DNA from: Dysidea avara
Lineage: Eukaryota > Porifera > Demospongiae > Dictyoceratida > Dysideidae
Direction: 5' to 3'
Length of the DNA: 64,000 nucleotides
Assembly: GCF_963678975.1 (NCBI RefSeq)
Contig: NC_089275.1
Location: 15,407,682 to 15,471,681 of the forward strand
In this document: positions 1 through 48,291 of the stretch, piece by piece
Layout of the letters: each line of letters opens with the position of its first letter
How positions within the stretch are numbered: position 1 is the stretch's first letter
The notes under the pieces: generated by a model
What the model was told of the DNA's origin: nothing
The model's database searches: none
The model's input: the letters and a program-made list of their open reading frames with translations, nothing else
Made by a program: the position numbers and the translations under genes

Positions 1-43
1 TCGTGGAGTTACCATTACTGAAATACCACAATGTCTGAGTTGA
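1..43 (+). CDS. 3' end of array copy A (secreted six-Cys protein), partial
   Basis: The first bases are the end of exon 3 of another copy of the array gene, cut by the window edge. The frame reads RGVTITEIPQC then L-S-stop, ending in TGA at 41-43. It matches the last 13 codons of copies B to G except that the penultimate residue is Leu (CTG) where others have Pro (CCG or CCA). The array therefore continues to the left of the window. Whether copy A is otherwise intact cannot be seen. An ATTAAA-type polyadenylation signal lies in the following 150 bp, as in the other copies. Confidence 0.85.
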   Translation, partial: RGVTITEIPQCLS

Positions 44-239
44 AACTTGAATACTGCATGTATGAATTATGGAATCTGATATGGACATGATTTATTAAAA
101 TATATTGTGTATCATGGATGTATATTAATTTTTGTGTTTTATAAGAAATTAAAGTTATATTCTAAGCAAATAGCTGCAGCTGTTGCAGGTAGAGATGCAA
201 TGATAGTACCAGTATAATTTCATAAATCAAGACACACGA

Positions 240-1075
240 TAGTGTGTCGTGCGGCCCAAGAAGCCGGCGCGCCACACCGTGAGTATATTGACAGGAAGAA
301 CGAAAATGTCATTTTCACACCTTTGTATCTCGGTGATCACTTATCTGATTGGAACCAAATTTGCTACACAGTTGCCCGCCAGCCAAGGGAGTCTACATTC
401 CAAATCTGAAGGAAATCGCTCCAGCCATTTCCGAGATACGAGCTTCCAAAGTTTCGTTTTTTTTTCTTCGTTTTTTTTTTTCTTCTTCTTCTTCGTCTTT
501 TCGCACACTTGCAAAAATTGCTATAACAAGCAAACGCGTACTCCGATCGCCTTGAAATTTGGCACACAGAAAGGGAGTCCAAAGGCGAATCCTAGCATCG
601 AATTTGGTACAAATCCGATGAATGGTTCAGGAGTTATGACCGATTATTCGCGTAAAACAAGATCGATTTGTTGTCACGCCTACAGGGTAAACCTCTTCAT
701 GGAATGAGTTGAAAATTGCTATGTAGATGGAGTAACCATCGTAGGAGTGCCTTTTGGTAGTTTGAAAGGAATCGAGATAAAGACCACGGAGATATGACAC
801 AAAACCCAACCTGTGTCACAATTACGCGATCGATTTTTATGAATAAAAAAGTATTAGTTTTCACGCCTACTAGGCAAACCGCTTAGAGCAATGAGCTAAT
901 AATCTTCATAGAAAGTCCTTGCAGTAGTACAGATGAATCGGATTACAAACCACTGAGTTATGATTCGAAAGCCAACTCCGTGTAGCAAATGCGAGATCGA
1001 GATACTCTAATAGAACAGTCACCCTAATAGAGCATACGACTAATTTATTTACTCCATTATAGAATTTTATTACAT
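240..1075. other. unclassified interspersed sequence with a T/CTT-rich tract
   Basis: This stretch is not shared with the spacers behind the other gene copies, so it is probably an insertion. It contains a T-rich tract near 453-500 that gives a spurious poly-Phe reading, and CpGs at several places. A 152-codon frame (249-707) crosses the tract, but its composition is not protein-like. At 1005-1035 it carries the dispersed TCTAATAGARCAGTCA motif. The family is not recognised. Confidence 0.35.
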
Positions 1076-1079
1076 CACA

Positions 1080-4000
1080 AGTTATTCTGTAGGGAGTTCA
1101 GCTGCAAACAGTTAATCTTATAGACAGTTCAGCAAGAAGACAGTCACCATGTGGAGAGTTAAGCAAATATATCACTATAGAGATTCAGAACATTACAAGT
1201 CACACTGAAGAAAGTTCAGCTATAAACAAGTCATGCACTGTGTAGAGAATTCAGCTACAATTAAGTCATTCTCTAGAGAATTCATTTGCACAGAATTCAG
1301 CTACACACAAGTCACTGTGGAGAGAGTTCAGCTACAAACAAATTACCCTTTAGAGTGATCAGCTACAAACAAAACACTTTGCAGGGTGTTCAGCTGCAAC
1401 AAATCAACCTTTAGAGCGATCAGCAATGAACAAATCAACACAAATCTACCTGTAGAGAGATCAGCTAGAAACAAATCACCCTGAAGAAAGTTCAGCTACA
1501 AAAAATCACCCTGTAGAGACATCAGCTAGAAACTATACACAATGTAAGGAGTTCAGCTACAAGCAATCACCCTGTAGAGAGTTCAGCTAAAACAAATCAA
1601 CCTGCAGAGAGATCAGCTACAAACAAATCACCTTATAGAGAGTTCAGCTACAAACAGATTACCTGTAGAGAGATCAGCTACAAACAAATCACCTTATAGA
1701 GAGTTCAGCTACAAACAGATTACCTGTAGAGAGATCGGCTACAAACAAATCAACCTGCAGAGAGATCAGCTACACACAAATCAACTTGTAGAGAGATCAG
1801 CTACAAACAAATCACCCTGTAGAGAGATCAGCTAGAAACTACACACAATGTAAGGAGTTCAGCTACAAACAAATCACCCTGTAGAGAGATCAGCTACAAA
1901 CTAGACACAAAGTAAAGAGTTCAGCTACAAGTAAATTACCCTGTAGAGAGTTCATCTACAAACAAATCAACCTGTAGAGCAATCAGCTAGAAACAAATCA
2001 CCCTGAAGAGAGGTCAGCTACAAAAAATCACCCTGTAGAGAGATTAGCTAGAAACAAATCACCCTGAAGAGAGGTCAGCTACAAAAAAATCACCCTGTAG
2101 AGAGATCAGCTACAAACAAATTGCCCTGTAGAGAGATCAGCTACAAGCAAAACACCCTGTAGAGAGTTCAGTAACAAAGAAACCACCATGTAGAGAGTTC
2201 AGCTACAAACAAATTACCCTGTAGAGAGATTGGCTACAAACAAATCAGCCTGTAGAGAGTTCAGCTACAAAAAATCAACCTGCAGAGAGATCAACTACAA
2301 ACAAATCACCTTACAGAGAGTTCAGCTACAAACAAATTACCCTATAGAGAGATCGGCTACAAAAAAATCAACCTGCAGAGAGATCAGCTACACACAAATC
2401 AACTTGTAGAGAGATCAACTACAAACAAATCACCCTGTAGAGAGATCAGCTAGAAACTACACACAATGTAAGGAGTTCAGCTACAAATAAATCACCCTGT
2501 AGAGAGTTCAGCTAAAATAAATCAACCTGCAGAGAGATCAGCTACAAACAAATCACCTTTTAGACAGTTCAGCTACAAATAAATTACCTTGTAGAGAGAT
2601 CGGCTACAAACAAATCACCCTGCAGAGAGAACAGCTACACACATATCAACTTGTATAGAGATCAGCTACAAACAAATCACCCTGTAGAGAGATCAGCTAC
2701 AAACTAGACACAAAGTAAGGAGTTCAGCTACAAGCAAATTACCCTGTAGAGAGTTCATCTACAAACAAATCAACCTTTAGAGCAATCAGCTAGAAACAAA
2801 TCACCCTGAAGAGAGATCACCTACAAAAAAGTACCCTGTACAGAGTTCAGCTACAAACAAATTACCCTGTAGAGAGATCGGCTACAAACAAATCAACCTG
2901 TAGAAAGATCAGCTACACACAAATCAACTTGTAGAGAGATCAGCTACAAACAAATCACCCTGTAGAGAGATCAGCTAGAAACTAGTCACAATGTAAGGAG
3001 TTCAGCTACAAGTAAATCACCCTGTAGAGAGTTCAGCTAAAACAAATCAACCTGCAGAGAGATCAGCTACAAATAAATCACTTTATAGACAGTTCAGCTA
3101 CAAACAAATTACCTTGTAGAGAGATTGGCTGCAAATTAATCAACCTGCAGAGAGATCAGCTACACACAAATCAACTTGTAGAGAGATCAGCTACAAACAA
3201 ATCACCCTGTAGAGAGATCAGCTAGAAACTAGATACAATGCAAGGAGTTCAGCTACAAGCAAAATCACCCTTTAGTGAGTTCAGCTACAAACAAATCAAC
3301 CTGCAGTGAGATCACCCACAAAAACGCACTTGTACAGAGTTCAGTTACAAACAAATTACCCTGTAGAGAGATCAGGTAGAAGAATTCACCTTGTAGAGAG
3401 TTCAGCAACAAAGAAACCACCATGTAGAGAGTTCAGCTGCAAACAAATCACCCAGTAGAAAGATCAGCTAGAAGAAGTTACCTTGTAGAGTGTTCAGTTA
3501 CAAAGAAACCATCATATAGAGAGTTCAGCTACAAAGATATTACCCCATAGAGAGTTCAGCTAGAAGAAGTCACCTTGTAAAGAGTTCAGCTACAAAGAAA
3601 CCATCATGTACAAAGTTCAGCTACAAAGAAACCACCTGTACAGAATTCAACTACAAACAAATCACCCTGTATAGAGGTCAGCTAGAAGAAGTTACCTTGT
3701 AGATAGTTCAGCTACAACAATTCACCCTGTAGAAAGATCAGCTAGAAGAAGTCACCTTGTAGAGTGTTCATTTACAAAGAAACCATCATGTAGAGAGTTC
3801 AGCTGCAAACAAATCACTCTGTAGATAGTTCAGCTACAAAGAAACCGCCATGTAGAGAGTTCAGCCTCATACAAACCACCTTGTAGAGAATTCAACTACA
3901 ACAAATCACCCTGTAGAGAAGAAGTTATCTTGTAGAGAGTTCAGCTACAAAGAAACCATCATGTAGGGAGTTCAGCTACAAAGAAACCACCATGTAGAGA

Positions 4001-4335
4001 GTTTAGCTACAAACAAATCACCTGTATAGAGTTCAGTTAGAAACAAATCACCCCGTAGAGAGATCAGCTGGACGAAGTCACCTTATAGAGAGTTCAGCTA
4101 CAAAGAAACCATCATGTAGAGAGTTCGGCTGCAAAGACACCACCATGTAGAGAGTTTAGCTGCAAACAAATCACCTGTAGAGAGTTCAGCTAGAAACAAA
4201 ATACCCTGTAGAGAGACCAGCTAGAAGAGGTTACCTTGTAGAGAGTTCAGCTACAAAAGAAACCATCCTGTATATAGTTCAGCTACATTTCAAGTCACCC
4301 AGTAGAGAGATCAGCTGTAAAAAAATATCTTGTGG
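1080..4335. repeat. 31-bp tandem satellite array (~3.25 kb)
   Basis: About one hundred imperfect copies of a ~31-bp unit, roughly GTAGAGAGATCAGC followed by TACAAACAAATCACCCT. Common variants swap ATCAGC/TTCAGC, ACAAAC/AGAAAC and CTGTAG/CTGCAG/TTATAG. A rare variant containing AGAAACTA..CACAATGTAAGG recurs at about 1528, 1834, 2452, 2977 and 3224. These spacings are close to whole multiples of 31, which indicates block amplification. No open reading frame runs through it. It sits between copy A and its downstream module, whereas the other spacers lack it. Confidence 0.93.
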
Positions 4336-4531
4336 GGAATAATGGGCATGTAATAAATATATGTATATAATTTGTATAATTACTAATAAAATCAAAAATA
4401 ATTGAAGTACTAAAATTCTTCTTTAAGTTCTTTTCTTCTTCCTGTAGTAAAGAAAAAAACACATGGGTTAAAAAAGCCCCAAAGCCAGCCATAGGCCGGC
4501 TTTGCAGTATACAAATACAAAAAGAAGTGAT

Positions 4532-4857
4532 ATCTAATCAAAAACAGCCAAGCTGTAAAAAAAGGTGCGGCCCCCAACTAGGCCATGGTGAAAAAATATG
4601 TGAAATCCAAGGTGGCGGCCAAGAAATGGCTGTGATGGTAGGTTAATGGTAAAAATTTTAATAACGACAATTCAAGTGAATTTTGTGCCACTTGGTCTTG
4701 GCATCAAATTCACCTGAATTGTCGTTATTAAAATTTTTACCATTAGCCTACCATCACAGCCATTTCTTGGCCGCCACCTTGGATTTCACATCTTTTTTCA
4801 CCATGGCCTTGTTGGGGGCTGCACCTTTTTTTACAGCTTGGCTGTTTTTGATTAGAT
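4532..4857. mobile_element. foldback element (about 150-bp inverted arms)
   Basis: The two halves are near-perfect reverse complements meeting near 4695. The outer ends read ATCTAATCAAAAACAGCCAA and its complement; the centre carries TTTTAATAACGACAATTCA and its complement. The same family forms the arms of the element at 7003-7656. The arm contains a lysine-rich reading (KKAMVKKDVKSKVAAKKW in related arms), disrupted here. This is a non-autonomous foldback or MITE-like element; no transposase is present. Confidence 0.85.
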
Positions 4858-4869
4858 TGTAATATACAT

Positions 4870-6050
4870 GAACACACCTGGTGATCAGGTTATCATAACA
4901 CTTTCATTATTACATACTTGTACTTGTTGTCATGGCAATTATTCTTACTCTTAGATGCCATGCACCTGACAGCTTGGGGCTCTACTACACAGTAATATAA
5001 ATGAATTTTATTACTGTACACAACCTATATAAGTTAACACATAACACAGAGATAGTTACACTGAACAACTAGCGAAGTGAAAAGATTGTCATAAAAGCAA
5101 TAAAATGTCAACTTTTTCTGTGGCTTTGTTAAAGTATTTGACTAATTTCAGAAGGACTGCTACTCTTTGATCAATGTTTGTACCAAATACTGTAATATAA
5201 CAGTCAACCACTATCAGACAGATTGTATGTATTTTATTTTAAAACGCTGTAGATAAAATAATAATTTATCTGTAACAATACAGTGACAACAGTCTAAAAT
5301 ATTATCTCAGGCCTTCTGTATAATAATCTGAAATATTCTTGGGCATGTCCCCAGATCCCATAATAGCATCCATATCTTCTGTATTATTCAAACTCCACTG
5401 TGTAATTTTATTTGCAAAGTTGCCATACCCACCACTCTCTAGCCTGCTGCACCACACCTGCCAAGAGTATATGTAAGTGTCAGAAAAGTCATGCTCTCCT
5501 TGGCTTTTCTTAAGTTGCTTATATATGCAGTGTAGTTTTGTGACTCTCCTCAAAATGCTTGTCTTTACTACACAATTAAGTAGTTGAGCATTGCATTTCC
5601 ACTTTAACACAATTTTCAGCTCTGGTGCACTTCCAACTAAATCTTCTTAAAGTTATGTTGATGATACGATCTGAACAATAAAGTATACAAGACGGAACAG
5701 TTTGTAAAATGCTTTATGTAGCTTTCACTTAGTTATAACTTGCAAAAAATGTCTTGAGATTGCACATGAGCTACTGTCCCTGAGAGCATTGGATATATAC
5801 ACTGTACTATAGATATTTACTGAAACAACCACAATGTCATCTAGTTTACTAAGAACTTTGTAACATAATATAGTTTCATTGTATCTTTTGAATATAATAA
5901 GTATACACAACCTTTAATTTTAATGCAGTCACAATGAAAGTATTATATTTATTTGATGAACAGGATTATACTTGGTACCAGAGTACATGAAATGTAGTAC
6001 TGATAGTGATCTATATCGGGACATGTGTATGGAGTTACAATCTTCACCCT
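4870..6050. repeat. downstream spacer module of the array (copy A side)
   Basis: Starting near CTGGTGATCAGGTTATCATA, this block recurs behind copy B (15200-15410), copy E (37140-38280), copy F (43680-44280) and in part behind C (22230-22265). It contains the candidate minus-strand terminal exon at 5302-5645. The sharing shows that the duplicated unit is larger than the gene. Apart from that exon no coding sequence was recognised. Confidence 0.7.
5302..5645 (-). CDS. candidate terminal exon of a minus-strand gene, unknown product
   Basis: An open frame of about 114 codons on the minus strand begins just after an AG (TTTAAG) and ends at TAA. It starts EDLVGSAPELKIVLKWK and ends NISDYYTEGLR. 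Composition is protein-like: K-rich first half, acidic second half. Related sequence occurs on the same strand at about 37505-37800 and 44070-44280, but both carry stops and indels, so they look like pseudo-exons. The acceptor is weak, and upstream exons are not proven; candidates lie between here and copy B. No family is recognised. Confidence 0.4.
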
Positions 6051-7002
6051 AAATATGCAGAAAATATATTTATCCTGGACTCTGTAGTGACTCCATTATC
6101 CTCCACAATGTGTAGTGTAGGCATATTCCAATGGAGCACAACACCTGAAATGTGGAACCTCCTCTGTATTCAGTGTAAACTTGAGCAATGTTGATTGACA
6201 CCAGTTAAGGGCAGAAACTAGAAATATGATGATCCTTGATGAAGGTTTTGTGGATTATGCATCTATCCAGCCAAACAAATTAATATTCTAAGAAATCAAC
6301 ATGTACCACTGATAGAGGTGTCAATAGATACTCATACATGCAAGCACCATTAGGCATATGTATCTTATGATTCTTGATGAAGAAATGTTATTTAATAGAT
6401 GATTGGTTATGATTTATATTTATATAAGGCATAAGATCATTGAAAACCTTTGATATGCACATTCTACATGCCACAAAACTATCAATAAACTATTATTATC
6501 ATGTACATTTCATAATCAGGCTATGATATTTAAACAAGCTTTCACGCATATGACTGTTCCATTATGCAATCAATTATCATAATACAAAAGAGTACTGCAG
6601 TACTATTCTACCAAATATTTTTACTACTCGATACTTCAGTGTGCTATAATGCCTTAATAAATAAAGTAATATCCATTTGGTTCCACATGCAGTACATAGA
6701 GATAATAAGCCACTCTCTAGAGTTCCTATGGATACATATACATGAAATTGACAAGGAGTAAACATCCTGACTGCCTGGAAGACTCCTGTAAGTGTTCGAG
6801 TGTTAATTGGATGGCTGCAGGTTTGAGGCTGCCCAGGTCCAGTCATGGATATTTTCTCGGATGCATATTTTGTGTTGCATAAAAATAAAGTTATATTCTA
6901 AGCAAATAACTGTAGCTATTGCAGGTGTGTTATACTAACTGATCTACTCTAATAAAGCAGTCAGGTTGCCTGATCATTAATAGTTTTATGCCCATTAGAG
7001 GT
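6051..7002. other. spacer without recognised gene
   Basis: AT-rich sequence with only short chance frames on both strands. The 89-codon minus frame at 6577-6846 has no splice or start context and no recognisable motif. Near 6880-6965 there is a fragment like the 3' flank of the array genes, including a (T)CTACTCTAATAAAGCAGTCAG motif. Confidence 0.5.
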
Positions 7003-7656
7003 GAATTTGGTGCCGTTTGGTCAATTGGCACAAAATTCACCTGAATTGTTGTTATTAAATTTTTTACCATTAACCTACCATCACAGTCATTTCTTGGCCA
7101 CCACCTTGGATTTCACATCTTTTTTCACCATAGCCTTTTCAAGGGCCGCACTCCTTTTTTTACAGCTTGGCTGTTTTTGATTAGATTTCACTTCTTTTTG
7201 TATTTGTATACTCCAAAGCCGGCCTATGGCCAGCTTTGGAGTATACAAATACAAAAAGATCAAATACTTCAATCAAATACTTCAATCAAATACTTCAATG
7301 AAACTACAGAAAAAGTTGACACTTTATCTGTTTTATAACAATCTTTTCATTTCAGTATGTTGTGATAAATAAAATCTAATCAAAAACAGCCAAGCTGTAA
7401 AAAAAGGTGCGGCCCCCAAAAAGGCCATGGTGAAAAAAGATGTGAAATCCAAGGTGGCGGCCAAGAAATGGCTGTGATGGTAGGTTAATGGTTACATTTT
7501 AATAACGACAATTCAGGTGAATTTTGTGCCGCTTGGTCTTGGCATCAAATTCACCTGAATTGTTGTTATCACAACATACTGAAATGAAAAGATTGTTATA
7601 AAACAGATAAAGTGTCAAGTTTTTCTGTAGTTTCATTGAAGTATTTGATCAATTCA
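7003..7656. mobile_element. composite foldback element, second copy of the 4.5-kb family
   Basis: Arm 7025-7200 is the reverse complement of 7375-7563, and 7256-7372 is the reverse complement of 7564-7655. Between them lies a tight palindrome (7207-7247, GTATACTCCAAAGC and its complement). The minus frame at 7087-7272 ends in a Lys-rich tail (AMVKKDVKSKVVAKK). A small direct repeat (CAAATACTTCAAT three times) lies at 7262-7300. The outer arm resembles the spacer sequence at 5085-5155, so the element may have captured or duplicated its flank. Confidence 0.8.
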
Positions 7657-8073: not shown

Positions 8074-8579
8074 AATCAACTGTTTACATGGTGCTTAGGA
8101 TATCATTTCCCAACGATAGTTGGCATATTATTATAAATAAAATACGAAGTATACAATTATACTCTTTGGATGTACTTTCAGCACAGCATAAACAAATACT
8201 GCTTGTATCTATTCCATTTTTGTTTTCGTGTTGGAACTATTAGTCAAAAAAATTTTCTTAAGCTCAAACAGAACAGATCACAAGCACCAATATTGAATAG
8301 CATTGGAGTCATTAATAGATTTGTTGTCTTATTTACCTTACATAGTATAGGGAATTTTTTGAACTAGCTAGTTGTTTCAGTACTGACTAAAGACAGAGTT
8401 AGTGTAAGGAAGACTGCTTTTGCTGAGTCAGAACTATGAAATATATTCTATAGCAATATTTGATGTTGCAAAATAAGATTTAACAATGAAACATTGCTGT
8501 GGAATGATTATTTGTTATATATAGCAGCTATATTAACATCCTCAGAGTGGATTCACCACTGAACTATGTATAGTAAATG

Positions 8580-10030
8580 TCTTTGTTGCTTGTTTGCTGA
8601 ATTAGAACATATCATTATGTTTATACTACACAAAATGATTATCATTCTTGGAGCAGCACATCAACTGGTCACTAACTTGATATTGTTATCACAACAAGTT
8701 ACAAATGAATGAACAAGTGTAGTAAACTAGTAAACACTCAGTATAGGATAAATAATACAATTCTTGTGTATCGACTATTGTGTGGAACAAGGAAGGAAAT
8801 TCTGTGTTGTGATCTCATCAACGGTCCATTAGATCCCTAATCCCATTGTTTTCATAATTAATCAAATAACCAACTTTCAAGATTCACTAAGCTACACATT
8901 CATGTACAGAATATAGCAATACAATACAGGATATTTTAAAGCCATGTAACTCACTTATTGCTCCTGCCACAGTGCAGCAGCAGTAGCAGCACAGAATTGA
9001 AAAAATCTTGTAAGACTTCATCTTAATGTACCATAAAATTGCCACACCACAAGTATTCTTTTCTTGCTACTTTAATTTACTGTATACACAGTAGCTATGT
9101 AGTACTGATATTTCTCACAACATCTGCTAACAGAACCAAAAAGGCTAAGTATGGCTAAAAACCTTGATGTGGGAAATTTGGTGTGTGAAAAGAAAGTAAC
9201 TCACTGGTACTATAGCTTGTCTTCATGGAACATCCTAGCTGGACAGTTATTATACATTAACTATAATCTAAACAAGTTACAAGTGAGTGAACAAAAAATA
9301 TTTTTAACTAACCAATTAGTTTATTTATGTTTGGTGATGTGCACAATTTCTTGTTAAAGCTGGTAATGTATACTTCCCACTGTTTGGAAGAAGAAGATTC
9401 CAAAATTCAAATCAAAATTTGACATGCTGTCATAACTAGTGGATTATTAGGCCACATAAACTTAATTATAGACTTATTTTCTCATCCACATCCACATCCA
9501 CATCACCATTTTTCTTACCTCATCAAGGATGTTTTGCACAACTGGTGGCTAAGGGAGGCCAATGAGCACCTTTTATAGTTGGTACCTTGTTAGAGTAGTC
9601 TAAGAAAATTGCATTTTGAGTCATTTTAGGTAGCTAATTCAGCTAGTTATCTAGTTAGTGGAAATAAAATAAGAATCTGCCCTCCCACACTGCTATAAAT
9701 TCAAGTACAGGAGGATAAGAAACTAATAAATAAGTTTATGTAGCCTTATGGATGTTTAGTGACAAAATGTTGTAAGTACTGTACACATGCTAATACACAG
9801 TTACATGTGTACTTCAAACATGATGTATATAGTAGGATATCAAACTGCAAAGTTGACAAAAGTTCAAAGCTCCAAATATCTTGCACCATGCACTCAAAAG
9901 ATATGATGGACTGATAAAGCTTAGAACTATTAGTAGTAGTACCGTAGTTTTTTTTGTACAGAATCAAAAAAAATATTGTATCAATTGTTTCTCCAAGTTT
10001 CATGTTATTTCCTCAGCATAAAGAACTACA
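8580..10030. repeat. upstream-distal spacer module (A-B interval)
   Basis: This block has sister copies at about 17240-18260, 27180-28960, 34340-35040, 38930-40140 and 46170-47260. Landmarks are AGGATAAATAATACAATTCT, GGAACAAGGAAGGAAATTCT and TTTGGTGATGT. Minus-strand pieces have exon-like donors (for example GATGAG then GTAAG near 9519), but the frame before it has an in-frame stop here. No intact gene was found. Confidence 0.75.
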
Positions 10031-10053
10031 ATGTATTCACATACACTGCACAA

Positions 10054-13904: not shown

Positions 13905-13959
13905 TTCATTGAAATTCTTCACATCAATGATCATTTAGGTAGTTAGTAATAGTATAAAA
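13905..13959 (+). promoter_or_regulatory. copy B promoter: TTCN3GAA site and TATA box
   Basis: A palindromic TTCATTGAA lies at 13905-13913 and a TATAAAA box starts at 13953, exactly 90 bp before the ATG at 14043. The same arrangement precedes every full copy. A transcription start about 30 bp after the TATA would leave a ~60-base leader. TTCN3GAA is the consensus bound by STAT factors; that this site binds STAT is inference. Confidence 0.65.
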
Positions 13960-14042: not shown

Positions 14043-14788
14043 ATGAAGATCTTCTCACTGGCTATTGGATGTTTCTTGATCATTAGCACTCTGCACTCTT
14101 CTTCTTCAGCTGCTCCTACTCTACAACTACAACAACATCAAGCTCCTCTTTCACATGTTAAACGAAATCAAGATGACAGAAATGCTTTATTCATTGCATA
14201 TAGTTGTCGGATAATGACAACAATTAATATTGTCAGAGATAAACTTGCCGTAAGTTCAACACAGACACTATATTAAATACATATTTATGTATATTGTTCT
14301 GTTACAGTCTATGCCTGTAGAGCAATGTGCTAGGGGACCATTATTTACACTTCAAGGTGGACTTCTAACACGTTACCAACAGCTCGATGCACCTCAGTGT
14401 ACTAATATTACACACATTAATGCTTTCTTGTTCAAACTAGTGTTCATGTCAAATGATCCTCAAACACGAGACATCCTTTATCACTTACAAGTGGCAACAG
14501 CTAATCTTAATCATATTCATGTGAGTTGAAACCAAACCCTCTACATTAACATGTGCAGTGTTTATATGATGTTTTGTGTTTGTTACACAGCTGGATCTAA
14601 CAGGAGTGTACTGTCCAACTTTCACTTTCACTGAATATGTACAAATATATAGACACATGGACCAAGTGTTCCATAATCCTGACAGTTTGTACTGCATACT
14701 CACCTCCCTAAACCATCACCTTCTTCCACTGTTAACAAATGAAGATCGTGGAGTTACCATTACTGAAATACCACCATGTCCAAGTTGA
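14043..14788 (+). CDS. array copy B: secreted six-cysteine helical protein (intact)
   Basis: Three exons, 14043-14249, 14308-14520 and 14591-14788, joined by 58-bp and 70-bp phase-0 introns with GTAAGT/ACAG and GTGAGT/ACAG ends, give 205 residues. Residues 1-24 form a signal peptide (MKIFSLAIGCFLIIST..SSAA). A short Q-rich stretch ends at a dibasic K40-R41, a possible prohormone-convertase site. After it come six cysteines (55, 76, 100, 148, 175, 203), one N-glycosylation site (N102-I-T) and helix-favouring stretches around 45-70, 104-118, 120-143 and 154-190. The start follows the conserved TATA at -90, and ATTAAA lies at 14894-14899. No known family was recognised; a cytokine-like helical bundle is a hypothesis from size, phase-0 introns and secretion. 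Confidence 0.88.
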
Positions 14789-17240
14789 AACGTGAATACT
14801 GCATGTATGAATTATGAAATCTGATGATTTACTGAAATAATAATAATATATTGTGTATCATGGATGTACATTAATTTTTGTGTTGTATAAGAAATTAAAG
14901 GTATAATATGAACAAAATAGCTGCAATGATAATATCAGCATAATTTTTTTTTAAATATTAGATACATGGAAATATGTATTAGAAAAATTTACTGTTTGCA
15001 CTGTTTCATTAAGAAACTGAAACTTTAATAATGAAGTGACAATTCTAATACAAGTTATACTAAGCAGTCAGGTAGACTGATCATTAATACTGGTATAATA
15101 TACAATATATTTTATGTACATTAGAGGATGTTTCAAAACTATCTATGTTATGCTAATGTGTTTATAATTGTACTCCATTAAACAAAATTGTAGAGAAGCC
15201 ATGATATGCATGAATACTACCTGGTGATCAGGTTATCATGACACTTCCATTATACTTGTTGTCTTGGCAATTCTTACTCTTAGATGTCATGCACCTGACA
15301 GCTTGGGGTTCTACTATATGGGGTTCTACTAGTAAATTTTATTTCTGTACACAACTTATATAACACAACACAGATATAGATACACTGAATAATAATTATT
15401 AGTGAAGTAAGATTGTCAATCTGGTGGTGGCTTATGCAGCAGAGGCCAGTATACCAGGGCATGCCCATGACATGTTTAAAATATAGACCTAAATTGACAT
15501 CTTACTAGTGTAGTTGGATGGTGTGTTCAATGAGCCACTTGTGACTTGATCATTGAAATAATTATAGACATTTTGAGGCAATTTATACCAATCCTATGTC
15601 ACAGGCTGTTTCATGGATTAACAAGGTACAACATAAACTCTGCTTTCAAAGGAATGAACAAGAAGTGTAAGCATGTCTGGCAAGCATTGTAGCCATCCAT
15701 ACAAGTCCAAGCAACAAACAAAAGTTAACAGGCCACCTTCCATTGGGTGTGCTGCCTGGATGGATCAAGAAGTGTGACCATCTGTTACCTGCTCAAATAA
15801 GTGCACGTAATAATTAAATTCTACAAGCTTAATATAGTAACATGTCAGGTTTGCATGCTCATCATAATTGTTATTGTCACACTATAATGATTTGGTGCTT
15901 GACCAGAATTAATGAACCTCAAATATTCCTATTACTCAGGCAATAGTGGACCTAAACTTGTGAAATCAGCAATATTGATTTACATATCATTGTGTGTGCA
16001 TTGTATACTATACATTTGTTACTGATACTCTACAATGCTGTCACCATAGCAATTAGTGTATGCTTGCTGCATAATACATTTATATACTTTAGTTATTTTG
16101 CATATTTTATCAGTTCTTGTGTGTGTTTGTGTGTGTTATTAAGTGTTTATCCAACTACTTTAGGGGAAATTGGGTGCATATTGCTGAACAATTAAAGTAA
16201 ATATTTACCCAGTCCAAAATAACTGTATGTGTTATCACTGAATGCTAAATGTAATTAAAATTGATGTGTCGCAATTAAGTGTGCTGATCTTTGTTGCAAT
16301 TTTGCTACTGAATATTGTTGCTGAATGTTGCTTCTGCTGAATATCGTAGCGTCTGTGCACAGTATTGTCTGTGCAGCGATTGTTGCAATGTTTGTTGTAC
16401 TTGAATACTGTAATGCTTGTTGCGACTAAATGTTAATAATGTTGCTCACAGTTAGCTGAATGTGTGTGAAGCACAGAGCAGTTATACACGTGCGCAAGCA
16501 TTTCCAATGCAGCATATGCAGTGTTGTAATGTTGGGCGTCAGTACCATTGGGTGTAAGTAATGCTGGATGTACTATGTAGCAAGTGAAGTTAATTGTGAC
16601 AGTCATAGCACATGTACATTTTCTACCCAAGCTGATGCATCCTACCTCAGTTGCCCTACCTCCCCAAAAGAGTTGTACGTATTTGTGCATATGTATGCGT
16701 GTCTGTATAGTGATGTGTTGTTGTAATATGTTGTGGTCACATGCCATAATGTTATAGAGCTTGGTGTGGTGGAAGGACGGTTTGTGTGGGAAAGAATTCA
16801 GTAATGTGTCGTGGTATGCATGTTCTTTGTATGTACTCAAGGTAGCATGTTACATTCTAGACAGTTTTATGCATTTCCAGCACCTTTAAAGTTTCCACAC
16901 TTATTATCATCTTTATAACAACTCGATGTTTACAACAGTTAGTCAACCAACATCAAACTTGATTAAACTCTGTGGAAATTCTTTATTCCACATAGTAGGA
17001 CAGATATTGACCAAACAACAGTTATTATAATCCTGTACATTTTGCCTAGTTAGCAGATATAGTTAGGATTGCTACACACATTCACTGCTACTAGCTAACT
17101 ATATTGTATAATCTTCTCTTTATTGATTATAATGAGGATGTATCCTCCTGATCTTCAACCTCATGAGTGCATGTGGGATTATTACAAGGAAAGTTATCTC
17201 TATTTCTTACAGGTATTTACTGAAAGGCTGTTAGGTTTCT
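14789..17240. repeat. downstream module of copy B
   Basis: Collinear with 43233-46170 behind copy F, including ACTGTTTCATTAAGAAACT, the GATCAGGTTATCAT block, a GTGTGTG-rich stretch and runs of TGTTGC-type repeats near 16290-16430. The 135-codon minus frame at 16433-16840 is only partly kept in the sister and is not supported as a gene. Together with the shared upstream module this shows that B and F units are duplicates of one segment of at least 6 kb. Confidence 0.75.
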
Positions 17241-18260
17241 TTAGATCAATCTTGCGTGCCATGTTATATTTTGCAGCAAACTACTTGCCATTAACAAGTT
17301 ACAAATGAATGGACAAGTGTAGTAAACTTAGTCTAGTAAACACTCAGTATAGGATAAATAATACAATTCTTGTGTATCAACTATTGCATGGAACAAGGAA
17401 GGAAATTCTGTGTTGTAATCTCATTAACTAACCATTAGATCCCTAATCCCATACATTCTATCCTAATTAACCAAATAATTATTTTTCACGAAAATATTCA
17501 CAGGCCAGCAGTACAAAATTTTAAAAAATTCTTAACATTTTTCTAAGATTTCATCTTAACAAACATAATAATTTCCAAACACAAACATTATTTTTCTTGA
17601 TACTTTAATTTACTGCATGCACAGTGGCTATGTAGCAGTGATATTTCTAACCACATCTGCTAACAGAACCAAAAAGGCTAAGTATGGCTAAAGCACCTTA
17701 CTGAGATTTAATGTGTGGAATCTGGTGCGTGAAAAGAAAAGTAACTCATGGGTATTATAGCATGTCTTCATGGAACATCCTGGCTGGACAGTTATTATGT
17801 TGTTATAGTCTAAACAAGTTACAAGTGAATGAACAAAAATATTGTAGCTAACTACCTAATCAATAAGTTAATTAATGTTTGGTGATGTGATATACAATTT
17901 CTTGTTCAAGTTGGTAATGTATACTTCCTACTGTTTGGAAGAAGAAGATTCCAAAATCTAAATCAAAATTAAACATGCTGTCATAACCAGTGGATTATCA
18001 TATGATCCTTATATGGTATCCCCTTAATGAATGCTACTAAATATGGTAAGTACTGTACACATGTTAATACACAGTTAAATGTGTACTTCAAACATGATGT
18101 AGTAGGATATCAAACTGACAAAAGTTTAATGTCCCACCACTCAATATTTATCATGCAGCATTATAATGCTTAAAACCATATATAATTTTGTACAGAAGTA
18201 CTAAAACAATGAACCAATTGCTTCTCCAAGTTTCATATTATTTCCTCAACAAATTGTAGC
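17241..18260. repeat. spacer module (B-C interval)
   Basis: Sister of 8580-10030 in the same orientation, with the GGAACAAGGAAGGAAATTCT, TTTGGTGATGT and TTCCAAAATC landmarks. No intact gene was seen. Sequence from 18260 to about 19000 is AT-rich with weak similarity to 35050-35600 and no recognised gene. Confidence 0.65.
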
Positions 18261-21018: not shown

Positions 21019-21759
21019 ATGAAGATCTTCTCACTGACTATTGGATGTTTCTTGATCATTAGCATTCTGCACTCTTCCTCTTCGGCTGCCCCTACTCTAC
21101 AACTACAACAACATCAAGCTCCTCTTTCACATGTTAAACGAAATCAAGATGACAGAAATGCTTTATTCATTGCATACAGTTGTCGGATTATGACAACAAT
21201 TAACATTGTCAGAAATAAACTTGCTGTAAGTTCAACACAAACACTGTGTACATATTTATGTATATTGTTCTGTTACAGTCTATGCCTGTAGAGCAATGTG
21301 CTAGGGGACTATTATTTACACTTCCAGGTGGACTTCTAACACGTTACCAACAGCTCGATGCACCTCAGTGTACTAATATTACACACATTAATGCTTTCCT
21401 ATTCAAACTAGTGTTCATGACAAATGATCCTCAAACACGAGACATCCTTTATCACTTACAAGTGGCAACAGCTAATCTTAATCATATTCATGTGAGTTGA
21501 AACTAAACCCTCTACATTATCATGTGCAGTGTTTATATGATGTTTTGTGTTTGTTACACAGCTGGATTTAACAGGAGTGTACTGTCCAACTTTCACTTTC
21601 ACTGAATATTTACAAATATATAGACACATGGCTCAAGTGTTACATAATCCAGACAGTTTGTACTGCATACTCACCTCCCTGAACCATCACCTTCTTCCAC
21701 TGTTAACAAATGAAGACCGTGGAGTTACCATTACTGAAATACCACAATGTCCGAGTTGA
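21019..21759 (+). CDS. array copy C: secreted six-cysteine helical protein (intact)
   Basis: Exons 21019-21225, 21279-21491 and 21562-21759, with 53-bp and 70-bp phase-0 introns, encode 205 residues. Relative to copy B it has A7T, T16I, D66N, P80L, Q85P, S117T, V157L, D164A, F167L and P202Q. All six post-signal cysteines, K40-R41 and the N102 sequon are kept. This copy keeps the CpG form of the codon before the last (CCG). The spacer upstream is rearranged, but the promoter box is kept, so it may be expressed. Same unknown family as B. Confidence 0.88.
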
Positions 21760-31559: not shown

Positions 31560-32305
31560 ATGAAGATCTTCTCACTGGCTATTGGATGTTTCTTCATCAT
31601 TAGCACTCTGCACTCTTCCTCTTCAGCTGCTCCTACTCTACAACTACAACAACATCAAGCTCCTCTTTCACATGTTAAACGAAATCAAGATGACAGAAAT
31701 GCTTTATTTATTGCATATAGTTGTCGGATACTAACAACAATTAACATTGTCAGAGATAAACTCGCTGTAAGTTCAACACAGACACTATGTTACATACATA
31801 TTTATGTATATTGTTCTGTTACAGTCTATGCCTGTAGAGCAATGTGCTAGGGGACCATTATCTACACTTCAAGGTGGACTTCTAACACGTTACCAACAGC
31901 TCGATGCACCTCAGTGTACTAATATTACACACATTAATGCTTTCCTATTCAAACTAGTGTTCATGACAAATGATCCTCAAACATGAGACATCCTTTATCA
32001 CTTACAAGTGGCAATAGCTAATCTTAATCATATTCATGTGAGTTGAAACTAAACCCTCTACATTGACTTGTGCAGTGTTTATATGATGTTTTGTGTTTGT
32101 TACACAGCTGGATCTAACAGGAGTGTACTGTCCAACTTTCACTTTCACTGAATGTTTACAAATATATAGCCACATGGACCAAGTGTTCCATAATCCAGAC
32201 AGTTTGTACTGCATACTCACCTCCCTAAACCATCACCTTCTTCCACTGTTAACAAATGAAGATCGTGGAGTTACCATTACTGAAATACCACAATGTCCAA
32301 GTTGA
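31560..32305 (+). pseudogene. array copy D: same gene with nonsense codon R123*
   Basis: Exons 31560-31766, 31825-32037 and 32108-32305. Splice sites, start and the exon 3 frame are intact, but codon 123 is TGA (31984-31986) where intact copies have CGA. The truncated product would have 122 residues and lack cysteines 148, 175 and 203. L12F, F82S and the stop are shared with copy E. It also has T to I in the exon 2 helix (QVAIANL). The stop is a C-to-T change at a CpG. It is either a young pseudogene or a truncated secreted form. Confidence 0.85.
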
Positions 32306-36060: not shown

Positions 36061-36133
36061 CTGTTACAGTTTGTACTCACTTCACTTCAACTAATCATTA
36101 CTTATCAGTGATAAACTTAGAAAATAATTTACA

Positions 36134-36879
36134 ATGAAGATCTTCTCACTGGCTATTGGATGTTTCTTCATCATTAGCACTCTGCACTCTTCCTCTTCAG
36201 CTGCTCCTACTCTACAACTACAACAACATCAAGCTCCTCTTTCACATGTTAAACGAAATCAAGATGACAGAAATGCTTTATTCATTGCATATAGTTGTCG
36301 GATAATGACAACAATTAACATTGTCAGAGATAAACTTGCTGTAAGTTCAACACAGACACTATGTTAAATACATATTTATGTATATTGTTCTGTTACAGTC
36401 TATGCCTGTAGAGCAATGTGCTAGGGGACTATTATCTACACTTCAAGGTGGACTTCTAACACGTTACCAACAGCTCGATGCACCTCAGTGTACTAATATT
36501 ACACACATTAATGCTTTCCTATTCAAACTAGTGTTCATGACAAATGATCCTCAAACATGAGACATCCTTTATCACTTACAAGTGGCAACAGCTAATCTTA
36601 ATCATATTCATGTGAGTTGAAACCAAACCCTCTACATTATCATGTGCAGTGTTTATATGATGTTTTGTGTTTGTTACACAGCTGGATCTAACAGGAGAGT
36701 ACTGTCCAACTTTCACTTTCAATGAATATTTACAAATATATAGACACATGGACCAAGTGTTCCATAATCCAGACAGTTTGTACTGCATACTCACCTCCCT
36801 AAACCACCACCTTCTTCCACTGTTAACAAATGAAGATCGTGGAGTTACCATTACTGAAATACCACAATGTCCAAGTTGA
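36134..36879 (+). pseudogene. array copy E: same gene with nonsense codon R123*
   Basis: Exons 36134-36340, 36399-36611 and 36682-36879. Codon 123 is TGA (36558-36560), the same mutation as in copy D, and L12F and F82S are shared too, so D and E descend from one already mutated copy. The rest of the frame is open; exon 3 has V146E and T154N. Splice sites are intact. A 122-residue product is possible; otherwise a pseudogene. Confidence 0.85.
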
Positions 36880-41274: not shown

Positions 41275-41346
41275 CTGTCCCCTCTTCTTCTCTATCTTGG
41301 CATGCTTTGCCATTAGCCAGACACAAGATGCCTCATCAACCAATCC
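41275..41346 (-). CDS. candidate minus-strand internal exon (copy F module)
   Basis: Same 24-residue reading and splice sites as 12784-12855. Identity at the protein level with the B module exon is consistent with the recent duplication of the B and F units. Confidence 0.48.
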
Positions 41347-41438
41347 CTAACAGAGACACAACAATACGATAAGCACAACACTGAAGCATACAGAATGACC
41401 CTTCACACTAGAAGATACACATCACAACAGAAACTGGG

Positions 41439-41774
41439 TTACCAATCCAACTGCTCTTTAGTGTTTTTAATGCAATGGATATTATATGACTGTTCTATTA
41501 GAGTAGCTTTAGAGGAATCCTTAAAAGTGACTACTCTATTAGAAATATTCCACAAGCAGATGTGTGCTACATATGTGTACAACAGTAGATTTTTAGAGTG
41601 TGACCACACAACTTCAAGTGCTAAAACATTTAGGTACATATAATACACACTTTGGTTATTAGAGTGCCGTATTAAGAAGAAGTGATAGTCATCACACGAT
41701 TCCCTCATCAGATTGGTACTGCTACAGAAAATCTTATCCTCATCAGGAATGCTGACATAACATGGCTCTGGGTA
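41439..41774 (-). CDS. candidate minus-strand exon or decayed exon
   Basis: After an acceptor-like TTGTTCACAG on the minus strand the frame opens YPEPCYVSIPDEDKIF, then CSSTNLMRESCDDYHFFL, and stays open to the stop at 41439. The B sister (near 13260-13330) has a 4-bp insertion that shifts this frame. In the D sister the first part is open, but it stops early. The true 3' end is unknown. No family recognised. Confidence 0.3.
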   Translation of the reverse strand, partial: YPEPCYVSIPDEDKIFCSSTNLMRESCDDYHFFLIRHSNNQSVYYMYLNVLALEVVWSHSKNLLLYTYVAHICLWNISNRVVTFKDSSKATLIEQSYNIHCIKNTKEQLDW

Positions 41775-42348
41775 CTGTGAACAAGCAATTAAATTAAATA
41801 AATACAGTCTGAAAGTGTTTTAAGAAATTACAGCCAACAAATATATACTCTAAAAGTACATAAAGTTTGTCCAAACTCAGAGAATAAATAGTGTCATTAC
41901 TACTTGTGAAAACAATGGTTTCAAACCAAGTAATCAATAAAACTGTGTAAAAAGCACTTTTTATAAGTCTAAACAGCTTCCCCATAATAGTCCATAGTAT
42001 TCCAATTATCTATTACAACTACACTGCATGTTCATTTACACTCAAGATGTACAGGTGGAGAGTGTACACTGTTTAACTTTCTGTGTACACATACTAATTG
42101 TTCATAGTACTAATTGCTGATTTTTAAATATTTAAAAAGTTGCAAAAAAGTACATACATTGTGCTATCCACATGCATGTCTTCAAGTCTTCACACATCAC
42201 AAATTTGATGACTAGGTGCTGTACAATTTTGTAAATAACTCTAACAGTAAAATTAATGTTGTTTGTGACAGCCTAATGGTGGATCTATGATAAATACACA
42301 TACTAGTGGATCTTTCCTTTCTAAGTATGAATCACACTTCATGTAATA

Positions 42349-42404
42349 TTCTCTGAAATTCTTCACATGAATGATCATTTAGGTAGTTAGTAATAGTATA
42401 AAAA
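42349..42404 (+). promoter_or_regulatory. copy F promoter: TTCTCTGAA and TATA box
   Basis: TTCTCTGAA at 42349-42357 and TATAAAAA from 42397, 90 bp before the ATG. Confidence 0.6.
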
Positions 42405-42486
42405 CCATTAGAGTTTGTACTCACTTCACTTCAACTAATCATTACTTATCAATGATAAACTTAGTGACATTATAAGATAATTTACA

Positions 42487-43232
42487 ATGAAGATCTTCTC
42501 ACTGGCTATTGGATGTTTCTTGATCATTAGCACTGTGCACTCTTGCTCTTCAGCTGCCCCTACTCTACAACTACAACAACTTCAAGCTCCTCTTTCACAC
42601 GTTAAATGAAATCAAGATGACAGAAATGCTTTATTCATTGCATATAGTTGTCGGATTATGACAACAATTGACATTGTCAGAGATAAACTTGCTGTAAGTT
42701 CAACACAGACACTATGTTAAATACATATTTATGTATATTGTTCTGTTACAGTCTATGCCTGAAGACCGATGTGCTAGGGGACCATTATTTACACTTCCAG
42801 GTGGACTTCTAACACGTTACCAACAGCTCGATGCACCTCAGTGTACTAATATTACACACATTAATGCTTTCCTATTCAAACTAGTCTTCATGACAAATGA
42901 TCCTCAAACACGAGAAATCCTTTATTACTTACAAGTGGCAACAGCTAATCTTAATCATATTCATGTGAGTTGAAACCAAACCCTCTACATTAACATGTGC
43001 AGTGTTTATATGATGTTTTGTGTTTGTTACACAGCTGGATTTAACAGGAGTGTATTGTCCAACTTTCACTTTCACTGAACATTTACAAATATATAGACAC
43101 ATGGGCCAAGTGTTCCATAATCCAGACAGTTTGTACTGCATACTCACCTCCCTAAACCATCATCTTCGTTCACTGTTAACAAATGAAGATCGTGGAGTTA
43201 CCATTACTGAAATACCACAATGTCCAAGTTGA
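42487..43232 (+). pseudogene. array copy F: same gene with nonsense codon R41*
   Basis: Exons 42487-42693, 42752-42964 and 43035-43232 with intact splice sites. Codon 41, the Arg of the dibasic site, is TGA (42607-42609), leaving only the signal peptide and leader. Further changes are S20C (HSCSS), H32L, V73E with E74D, D124E and H128Y in exon 2, and Y156H, D164G, L185R and P186S in exon 3. It has drifted more than the others, as expected of a pseudogene. The stop is again a CpG transition (CGA to TGA). Confidence 0.87.
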
Positions 43233-45024
43233 AACTTGAATACTGCATGTATGAATTATGGAATCTGATATGGACATGATTTACTAAAATAATATATTGT
43301 GTATCATGGATGTACATTAATTTTTGTGTTGTATAAGAAATTAAAGGTATAATATGAACAAAATAGCTGTAGCTGTTGCAGGTTGGGATGCGATCATAAT
43401 ACTGAAATAATTTTTAAAAATAACAGATACATGGAGATATGCAGTAGAAAATTCTGCTGTTTGCACTGTTTCATTAAGAAACTCTAATAACAAAGTGACA
43501 ATTCTAATACAAGTTATACTAAGCAGTCAGGTAGACAGATCATTAATAATGGTATAATATACCAATATATTTTATGTACATTAGAGGATGTTTCAAAACT
43601 ATCTATATATGTTATGCTAACGTGTTTATAATTGTACTCCATTGAACAAAATTGTAGAGAAGCCATGATATGCATGAACACTACCTGGTGATCAGGTTAT
43701 CATAACACTTCCATTATACTTGTTGTCATGGCAATTCTTACTCTTAGATGTCATGCACCTGACAGCTTGGGGTTCTACTATATGGGGTTCTACTAGTAAA
43801 TTTTATTACTGTACACAACTTATATAACACATAACACAGAGATAGATAGTGAAGTAAGATTGTTATAAAACAGATAAAGTGCAACTTTTTCTGAAGCATC
43901 GTTGAAGTATTAGACTAATTTCAGAAGGACTGCCACTCTTCCGGTCCATTGTTATTATCAATGTTTGTACTAAATACTCTAATATAACAGTCAACCACTA
44001 TATATCAGTCTGTATTTCTTTTTAAAAGCTTTAGCTAATATAATTTATTTGTAACAATACAGTGAGAACAGTGTCTCAGACTTTCTGTATAATAATCTGA
44101 AATATTCCTGGGGGCATGTCTTCTGTATTTTCACATTCCATTGTGTAATTTCATTTACAAAAGTGCTGTACCCTTTCTTCTCTAGCCTGCTGCATCACAC
44201 CTGCCAAGATTATAAGGATCAGAAAAGCCATGCTCTCCTTGGCTTAGTTTTCTTAATTAAGTTGCTTATGCAGCGTAAGCAATCTGGTGGTGGCTTATGC
44301 AGCACAGGCCAGTACCAGGGCATGACCTTGACATGTTACAACATGTTTAAAATATAGACCAATGTAAAGTTAATTGACATCTTACTAGTGTAGTTGGATG
44401 GTGTGTTCAATGAGCCACTTGTGACTTGATCATTCAAATAATTATAGACATTTTGAGGCAATTTATAACAATCCTATGTTACAGACTGTTTCATGGATTA
44501 ACAAGGTACAACATAAACTCTGCTTTCAAAGGAATGAACAAGAAGTGTAAGCATGTCTGACAAGCATTGTAGCCATCCAAACAAGCAGTATATAGATGTA
44601 GTTTGTTGCCCCAACAACAAACAAAAGTTAACAGGCTACCTTCCATTGGGTAGGCTGTCTGGATGGATCAAGAAGTGTGACCATCTGTTACCTGGTCAAC
44701 TAAGTGCACGTCATAATTAAATTCTACAAGCTTAATATAGTAACAGGTCAGGTTTTGCATGCTCATCATAATTGTTATTGTCACACTATGATGGTTTGGT
44801 GCTTGACCAGAATTAATGAACCTCAAATATTCCTATTCCTCAGGCGATAGTGGACCTAAACTTGTGAAATCAGCAATATTGATTTACATATCATTGTGTA
44901 TGTATTCTATACTATACACTTGTTACTGATACTCTGCAGTGCTGTCGCCATAGCAATTAGTGTATGCTTGCTGTATATATATTTATATACTTTAGTTATT
45001 TAGCACATTTTATCATTTCTTGTG

Positions 45025-45079
<55 letters not shown>

Positions 45080-46170
45080 TATTAAGTGTTTATCCAACTA
45101 CTTTGGGCGCATATTGCTGAACAATTAAAGTAAATATATACCCAGTCTAAAATAACTGTATGTGTTATCACTGAATGCTAAATGTCATTAAAATTGATGT
45201 GTCGCAACTAAATGTGCTGATCTTTGTTGCAATGTTGCTGCTGAATATTGTTACTGAATGTAGCTGCTGCTGAATATCATAGCGTCTGTGTGCAGTAAAG
45301 TCTGTGCAGCGACTGTTGTAATGTTTGTTGCGCTTGAATGTTGTAATGCTTGTTGCGACTAAATGTTTGTAATGTCACTCACAGTTAGCTGAATGTGCAT
45401 GAAGCACAGGGAAGTTATACATGTGTGCAAGCGTTTGCAATGCAGAATATGCAGTGTCATAATGTCCGGTATCAGTACTGTTGGGTGTAAGTAATGCTGG
45501 ATATGTAGTAAGTGAAGTTAACTGTGACAGTGATAACACATGTACATTTTCTACCCAAGCTGATGCATCCTATCTCAGTTTCCCTACCTCCCCCAAAGAG
45601 TTGTATGTATATTTGCATATGTATGCGTGTCTGTATAGTGATGTGTTGTTGTAATATGTTGTGGTCACATACTGTAATGTTATAGAGCTCAGTACGGTGG
45701 AAGGGTGGTTTGTGTAGGAAAGCCTGCAGTAATGTGTCGTGGTATGAATGTTTGTATGTACTCAAGGTAGCACGTTAAATTTTAGACAATTTTATGCATT
45801 TCCAGCACCTTTTAAAGTTTCCACACTTATTATCATCTTTATGACAACTTGATGTTTACAACAGTTAGTCAACCAACATCAAACTTGATTAAACTCTGTG
45901 GAAATTCTTTATTCCACATAGTAGGACAGATATTGACCAAACAACAGTTCTTATAATCCTGTATATTTTGCCTAGTTAGCAGATATAGTTAGGATTGCTA
46001 CACACATTCACTGCTACTAGCTAACTATATTGTATAATCTTCTGTTTATTGATTATAATGAGGATGTATCCTCCTGATCTTCAATCTCATGAGTGCATGT
46101 GGGATTATTACAAGGAAAGTTATCTCTATTTTTTTACAGGTATTCACTGAAAGGCTGTTAGATCAATCTT
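43233..46170. repeat. downstream module of copy F
   Basis: Collinear with 14789-17240. It also has the 43860-44280 piece with a decayed sister of the 5302-5645 exon (GTATTTTCACATTCC region). A (GT)n microsatellite interrupted by TTT lies at about 45020-45080. Confidence 0.72.
45020..45080. repeat. (GT)n microsatellite
   Basis: Three GTGTGTG blocks separated by GTTTGTG. The sister near 16120-16140 has only a few units, so the tract expanded after duplication. Confidence 0.9.
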
Positions 46171-47260
46171 GCGTGCTATGTTATATTTTGCAGTCAACTA
46201 CTTGCCATTAACGAGTTATAAATGAATGAACAGGTGTAGTAAACTAGTAAACACTCAGTATAGGATAAATAATACAATTCTTGTGTATCAACTATTGTGT
46301 GGAACAAGGAAGGAAATTCTGTGTTGTGATCTCATCAACTAACCATTAGATCCCTAATCCCATTCTATCCATAATTAATCAAATAACCATTTTCAAGAAA
46401 AACTTCACTGGCTACACATTCATGCACAGAATATCCCAGCACAAAATGTACAATATATTTTTAAAGCCACATATTCTAGCTCCTGTCACAGTGCTGCAGC
46501 TGCACAAATTGAAAGATTTTCATAATGTTTTCTATGAATTTATCTTAACGAAACATAAAAACTATACAAACACAAACATTATTTTTCTTGCTACTTCAAT
46601 TTACTGTATGCACAGTATAGCTATGTACGTAGTAGTGATATTTCTAACCACATCTGCTAACAGAACCAAAAAAGGCTAAGAGGTACTTACTAAGACTTAA
46701 AGTGTGGGATCTGGTGTGTGAAAAAGACAGTAACTCACCGGTACTATCTTGTCTTCATGGAACATCCTGACTAGACAGTTATTATACATTAATTATAATC
46801 TAAACAAGTTACAAGTGAGTGAACAAAAACTATTTGTAGCTAACCAATATGTTTATTAATGTTTGGTGATGTATAATGTCTTGTTCAAGCTGGTAATGTA
46901 TACTTCCTACTGTTTGGAAGAAGAAGATTCCAAAATCCAATCAAAATTTGACGAACTCTCATAACCAGTAGATTATCATGATATCCTTATATGGTATCCC
47001 TTAATGAATGCCTTAATGACTAAATATGGTAAGTATTGTACACATGTTAATACACAGTTACATGTGTACTTCAAACATGATGTAGTAGGATATCAAACTG
47101 TAAAGTTAACAAAAGTAATATCTTGCACCACTCAAAATATTTATGATGGACTGGTCTGCAGTAGTATAAAGCTCAGAACCATGCATGATTGTGCAAAATT
47201 ACATAATACAAAAATAATGTACCAATTGCTTCTCCAGGTTTTCATGCATTATTTCCTCAA
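46171..47260. repeat. spacer module (F-G interval)
   Basis: Sister of 17240-18260 and 8580-9470, shorter. No gene recognised; 47261-47400 is unassigned. Confidence 0.6.
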
Positions 47261-47407
47261 GCATTTGTAACTAACAGCTCATTGTTTTGAAAAGTTTCAA
47301 ATCAACCACTAGGTACAGTGTGTACAATATACATGTTACAGTAGTTATTTATGACACGTTAACATATTTCCTTTCCAAGTATTTTCTCCATAACATCACG
47401 TTTAATG

Positions 47408-47463
47408 TTCCCTGAAATTCTTCACATCAATGATCATTTAGGTAGTTAGTAATAGTATAAAAA
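47408..47463 (+). promoter_or_regulatory. copy G promoter: TTCCCTGAA and TATA box
   Basis: TTCCCTGAA at 47408-47416 and TATAAAAA from 47456, 90 bp before the ATG. The spacer bases of the palindrome differ from the other copies, but both half-sites are kept. Confidence 0.62.
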
Positions 47464-47545
47464 CCATTAGAGTTTGTACTCACTTCACTTCAACTAATCA
47501 TTACATATCAGTGATAAACTTGTTAACATTATAAGATAATTTACA

Positions 47546-48291
47546 ATGAAGATCTTTTCACTGGCTATTGGATGTTTCTTGATCATTAGCACTCTGCACT
47601 CTTCCTCTTCAGCTGCTCCTACTCTACAACTACAACAACATCAAGCTCCTCTTTCACATGTTAAACGAAATCAAGATGACAGAAATGCTTTATTCATTGC
47701 ATATAGTTGTCGGATACTGACAACAATTGACATTGTCAGAGATAAACTTGCTGTAAGTTCAACACAGACACTATGTTAAATACATATTTATGTATATTGC
47801 TTTGTTACAGTCTATGCCTGTAGAGCGATGTGCTAGGGGACCATTATTTACACTTCCAGGTGGACTTCTAACACGTTACCAACAGCTCGATGCACCTCAG
47901 TGTACTAATATTACACACATTAATGCTTTCTTATTCAAACTAGTGTTCATGACAAATGATCCTCAAACACGAGACATCCTTTATCACTTACAAGTGGCAA
48001 CAGCTAATCTTAATCATATTCATGTGAGTTGAAACCAAACCCTCTACATTAACATGTGCAGTGTTTATATGATGTTTTGTGTTTGTTACACAGCTGGATC
48101 TAACAGGAGTGTACTGTCCAACTTTCACTTTCTCTGAATATTTACAAATATATAGACACATGGACCAAGTGTTCCATAATCCAGACAGTTTGTACTGCAT
48201 ACTCACCTCCCTAAACCATCACCTTCTTCCACTGTTAACAAATGAAGATTGTGGAGTTACCATTACTGAAATACCACAATGTCCGAGTTGA
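47546..48291 (+). CDS. array copy G: secreted helical protein, open, with extra cysteine
   Basis: Exons 47546-47752, 47811-48023 and 48094-48291 give 205 residues with 58-bp and 70-bp phase-0 introns. Signal peptide, K40-R41, N102 sequon and all six cysteines are present. Differences from B are M58L, N62D, Q75R, Q85P, S117T, T154S, V157L, R193C and P202Q. R193C adds a seventh cysteine ten residues before C203 and is a CpG transition (CGT to TGT). This is the last copy of the array in this window. The downstream flank diverges from the other modules after about 48.6 kb. Confidence 0.87.

Follow-up and report, generated by a model that had tools for sequence, protein, structure and literature searches.

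A large array of genes for a probably secreted protein

The window, a 64,000-nt stretch of DNA (C4:15407682-15471681), lies in a large array of three-exon genes whose product is probably secreted by means of a signal peptide and, as judged by sequence comparison, belongs to an apparently undescribed family. The observation is real and larger than first reported. An earlier note on this DNA had counted at least seven copies of the gene, and this was borne out: six full copies and the 3' end of a seventh were found, all on the + strand, the seventh starting 703 bases upstream of the window (C4:15406979). Each full copy has exons of 207, 213 and 198 nt, with GT-AG borders and phase 0 at both introns. 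Premature stops, all of them TGA and absent from the earlier note, were found in three of the six full copies (g3, g4 and g5). The features are as follows, in window positions.

1..43, + strand: last codons of the seventh copy (3' end of exon 3); whole copy at C4:15406979-15407724, intact
13953..13959, + strand: TATA box (TATAAAA), 90 nt upstream of the g1 ATG
14043..14788, + strand: copy g1, intact; exons 14043-14249, 14308-14520, 14591-14788
14160..14165, + strand: KR dibasic site of g1, codons 40-41
21019..21759, + strand: copy g2, intact; exons 21019-21225, 21279-21491, 21562-21759
31560..32305, + strand: copy g3, TGA at codon 123; exons 31560-31766, 31825-32037, 32108-32305
36134..36879, + strand: copy g4, TGA at codon 123; exons 36134-36340, 36399-36611, 36682-36879
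42487..43232, + strand: copy g5, TGA at codon 41 (within the KR site); exons 42487-42693, 42752-42964, 43035-43232
47546..48291, + strand: copy g6, intact; exons 47546-47752, 47811-48023, 48094-48291

The genome searched comprises 550.8 Mb in 108 contigs. Exon 1 gave 40 DNA matches, and a protein search of the genome (E<=10) gave 145 exon-level matches, 127 of which were of the window type (subfamily A). These 127 matches correspond to 42 loci within 450 kb (C4:15.299-15.749 Mb) in both orientations. The head-to-tail order described in the earlier note holds within the window. The remaining 18 protein matches comprised nine from three loci on C12 (subfamily C), eight of B type and one at chance level. 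With one B copy as query, nine B loci, some of them partial, were found at C4:14.94-15.64 Mb. All locus counts are lower bounds (at least 42 A, nine B and three C), and together they give at least 54 loci for one secreted-protein design. At C4:15208162-15209028 the matches of a B-type copy lie within one 314-aa frame with few stops.

Sequence was read for 38 of the 42 A loci, those near 15586892, 15609925, 15669529 and 15748447 being left out, and for one C locus (L051) and two B loci (L052 and L053). Identity of the coding sequence was 92.9-99.5% among the 36 read A copies that were compared; this similarity, along with the DNA and protein matches across the genome, excludes chance. Duplicated blocks reach 8.4 kb at 96% identity. 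When a 13-kb unit was queried against 260 kb of the array, its most widely shared part was the gene segment. Two more segments, at about 8500-9500 and 17000-17500 of the window, are common to many places in the array.

The window also contains a long minisatellite with units of about 31 nt, which adjoins the array (1050-4310), and inverted-repeat, MITE-like elements with common sequence, recognized by eye, at about 4490-4860 and 7020-7560. At 56925-58628 on the + strand, a 568-aa ORF encodes a reverse transcriptase (PF00078, E 4.6e-28), and a shorter ORF at 58956-59597 on the - strand appears akin to it by eye. Also on the - strand, an ORF with a TRAF/meprin-type MATH domain (50942-51589, Pfam E 2e-9) is adjoined by a Ser/Glu/Pro-rich ORF that has no Pfam match (49917-50630).

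Introns and promoter

In 35 of the 37 A copies that could be judged, the exons align to g1 without gaps. The length of intron 1 is 50, 53 or 58 nt in subfamily A, as against 67, 89 or 120 nt in the other two subfamilies. For intron 2 it is 54 nt in B, 51 nt in C and, in A, 70 nt (35 of 38 copies). Every subfamily has phase 0 at both introns. Because the exons are free of gaps and the intron lengths differ out of frame, the reading frame is kept only with the predicted introns removed. Of the 38 A copies, 36 carry TATAAA 80-95 nt ahead of the ATG; the distance is 79-83 nt in the one C and two B loci that were read.

The product and its cysteine pattern

The spliced gene encodes a 205-aa prepropeptide with a signal of about residues 1-24 (judged by eye), a KR site at residues 40-41 and 164 aa after KR, which agrees with the lengths given earlier. 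Secretion, as claimed in the earlier note, is probable from the signal-like start of the predicted protein. Subfamily A has cysteines after KR at residues 55, 76, 100, 148, 175 and 203 (spacing X20-X23-X47-X26-X27). The KR site and the six mature cysteines are present in all 30 intact copies. The number of six noticed at first is a property of the window subfamily and not of the whole family, as KR is followed by nine cysteines in the C locus read and by eight or more in a B locus. The length after KR is 164 aa in A, 168 aa in C and at least 202 aa in the stretch of B that was read. The mature part is acidic (K+R minus D+E = -4). Together with the signal-like N-terminus, judged by eye, the mature size fits the helical-cytokine range of about 140-200 aa.

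Subfamilies B and C keep the signal, the pro-region, both phase-0 introns and the cysteine core of A, while identity between the three is about 35-50%. Exon-by-exon alignments with one member of each scored 7.6-18.8 SD above shuffled sequences in all nine comparisons, and the cysteine spacing is kept across subfamilies (X20, X22-23, X47-49, X26-27). B and C share a cysteine in predicted helix C and a second C-terminal cysteine, neither of which is found in A; their last two cysteines lie four residues apart, and C has one further cysteine of its own. Since the two extra cysteines are jointly present or absent, comparison of the three subfamilies suggests that they pair with each other. The pair was either lost by A or gained before B and C diverged. 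KR is replaced by SKG in L053, one of the two B loci that were read, so that cleavage may not be essential there.

Insect odorant-binding proteins are secreted, helical, six-cysteine proteins encoded by tandem genes, and their cysteines show C2-X3-C3 and C5-X8-C6 spacings. The six cysteines, the secretion signal, the predicted helices and the tandem cluster would all suit an all-helical small-molecule carrier built on a similar plan. We consider this the most improbable of the readings discussed here, as both characteristic spacings are missing from the window subfamily, Pfam gave no match and the B and C loci read have at least eight cysteines.

Copy integrity and selection

Copies were scored as intact when they had 205 codons and GT-AG at both introns, and 30 of the 38 read A copies were intact. 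The other eight comprise five with nonsense codons only, one with an N-run that could not be judged, one with an insertion in exon 3 and one with an altered exon-3 start. TGA at codon 41 occurs in two loci (C4:15365503 and 15450168) and TGA at codon 123 in two adjoining loci (C4:15439241 and 15443815); these recurring stops reflect a common duplication or repeated mutation.

The mature sequences of the 30 intact copies are all different. Pairwise pN/pS was 0.48 overall and 0.53 in the mature part. Distinct variants were 74 nonsynonymous to 56 synonymous, compared with 2.39 to 1 expected (P=0.001), and 61 to 40 in the mature part alone (P=0.02), these P values being rough because the copies are related by descent and probably by conversion. 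Purifying selection on the array genes is therefore present and modest. Many copies may be dispensable, given the weak selection, the nonsense codons in five of 38 copies and the loss of KR in one B locus.

These data bear on whether the array is mostly a decaying repeat, in which segmental duplication carries the gene along and most copies stay unexpressed. The copies broken by nonsense alone, the two more with an altered exon 3, the long duplicated blocks and a pN/pS of about 0.5 would all fit such a repeat. We nevertheless regard it as very unlikely: most of the copies read are intact, nearly all of the judgeable ones have gap-free exons, and B and C keep the design at their much lower identity. 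It is also the gene segment that is most widely shared across the array.

Within residues 70-100, 14 nonsynonymous and six synonymous variants were counted, a ratio of 1.04 to the neutral expectation, with no constraint visible on these small numbers. Tandem, near-identical secreted families with one less constrained segment can be recognition molecules, and the product could accordingly be a gamete- or self-recognition ligand, or else an extracellular-matrix component, amplified in the lineage. The small counts in this segment and the lack of any adhesive domain match in Pfam speak against this reading, which we hold to be distinctly improbable.

Database searches and structure models

Pfam gave no match at E<=10 to any of the three subfamilies. 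PDB sequences gave none at E<=0.01 (best E 0.22; the rows at E 0.22-1 are not cytokines), and neither did NCBIfam (best E 0.13, with unrelated names). The earlier statement that the family is not a recognized one therefore stands for these three collections, and a match to a known non-secreted family, which had been named as a refutation, was looked for in them and not found. Among 5.8 billion proteins, the relatives found are all unnamed JGI or ENA entries, with identities as low as 61%; the whole protein retrieved one, the exon-2 frame 11 (including that one) and the exon-3 frame two. Scans of viral contigs and GTDB genomes gave no relatives.

Two AlphaFold2 models were obtained, each with 14 rows and each including intron-coded residues. 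The first, of the C locus read through its introns, had a mean pLDDT of 48.1 and a pTM of 0.29; the second, of exons 2-3 of a B locus with intron 2, had 53.8 and 0.46. Both are all-helix, and in the C-locus model one helix continues through intron-coded residues. In Foldseek the best E was 0.64, and the top rows mix nuclear receptors, globins and designed and other helical proteins. As the models are too poor and no Foldseek match stands out, no fold was assigned, which leaves the comparison with the up-up-down-down bundle of helical cytokines at the level of all-helix models. The helical character proposed earlier is thus retained as likely on the basis of the models, while their low confidence (pLDDT 48 and 54) does not allow a fold to be named.

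The JGI and ENA contigs that hold the relatives are taken to be metagenome assemblies, which is in line with a secreted effector for defence or for managing symbionts, one that would kill or bind microbes and be present in many copies for dose and variety. The large, young array with a different mature sequence in each intact copy, the cysteine stabilization and the pro-processing indicated by the sequence point in the same direction. A mature part as long as 164 aa and of acidic character does not resemble a membrane-active peptide, Pfam gave no match to an antimicrobial family, and selection over most of the protein is mildly purifying and not diversifying. An effector of this kind ranks second among the explanations; it is conceivable, and we doubt it.

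A possible helical ligand as the favored explanation

The explanation that we favor, tentatively and at somewhat less than even confidence, is that the product is secreted and serves as a helical ligand resembling a cytokine or protein hormone, with its receptor on the surface of the same animal's cells. The signal peptide would direct the protein into the secretory pathway, and a cut after the conserved KR would set free the mature part of about 164 aa. Three disulfides would stabilize it in the window subfamily, with one more in B and C. Helical cytokines have introns that lie between helices; according to the low-confidence models here, whose helix borders take in intron-coded residues, helix A would be encoded by exon 1, the A-B loop and helices B and C by exon 2, and the last helix pair by exon 3. 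The soluble helical ligand might then, speculatively, act on a cell-surface receptor of the same animal, and the compact TATA-box genes may have been amplified for dose and perhaps for diversity of the A-B loop. A role in signalling or defence, as suggested in the earlier note, is compatible with what was observed.

Support for the ligand comes from the architecture, cysteine spacing and phase-0 introns that are kept in three subfamilies, from KR in all intact A copies, and from the TATA boxes, the purifying selection, the all-helix models and the part of a STAT domain encoded in this genome. Further support is provided by resemblance to type III interferons, which were recognized by their small size, secretion, clustering, phase-0 introns and lack of detectable similarity (PMC2654155). 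The same paper describes known cytokine families as often without mutual sequence similarity. Four phase-0 introns are also reported for the type I interferon genes of fish (PMC4929537), and two such introns alone are weak evidence for cytokine kinship. Against the ligand, no fold was assigned, no cytokine was matched in Pfam or PDB sequences, selection within the array is weak, nonsense codons break five of the 38 copies and one B locus lacks KR; an antimicrobial or structural product would likewise be compatible with the amplification of near-identical copies.

A partial STAT_bind domain was found at four places in the genome, as similar-scoring matches about 30-60 kb apart on C10 (17768905-17887406), perhaps a duplicated STAT gene. 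The TRAF-type MATH domain in the window and the part of a STAT domain in the genome fit an animal. PMC13203501 reports JAK and STAT for sponges but IL6 for vertebrates only. CRLF3 is reported absent from Porifera (PMC6797617), which would count against the ligand if the animal is a sponge. A stronger version of the ligand hypothesis, that these are ancient, non-vertebrate, true helical-bundle cytokines signalling through a STAT-containing pathway and encoded by dozens of TATA-box genes, is one that we think unlikely. If true, and if the animal is a sponge, it would provide a ligand class for a lineage with reported JAK and STAT but no reported IL6. On the same condition, a ligand function in general would make it possible to test how cytokine signalling originated. 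The subfamilies offer a defined target for expression, structure and localization studies, with a 164-aa mature protein and a predicted extra disulfide in B and C.

Comparison with known systems

Membership of the insect odorant-binding proteins is contradicted by the six-cysteine spacing. The family here differs from them in its KR pro-site, its cysteine spacing and the lack of a Pfam match.

The class II helical cytokines (IL-10 and interferon lambda) are, like the probably secreted proteins described here, small and secreted, of similar length and encoded by clustered genes with phase-0 introns (PMC2654155). Their families show no BLAST-level similarity to each other according to the same source; helicity here comes from weak models. 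IL-10 and IFN-lambda genes have four introns and five exons (PMC2654155), whereas the genes here have two introns. The family also departs from class II cytokines in its KR pro-site, its six to nine cysteines after KR and the absence of a sequence match.

CSF-1 and FLT3 ligand are class I short-chain helical cytokines with three disulfides. While the family here has no sequence match to them in Pfam or PDB, it resembles them in its three predicted disulfides, its probable secretion, its probably helical nature and its size of about 160 aa.
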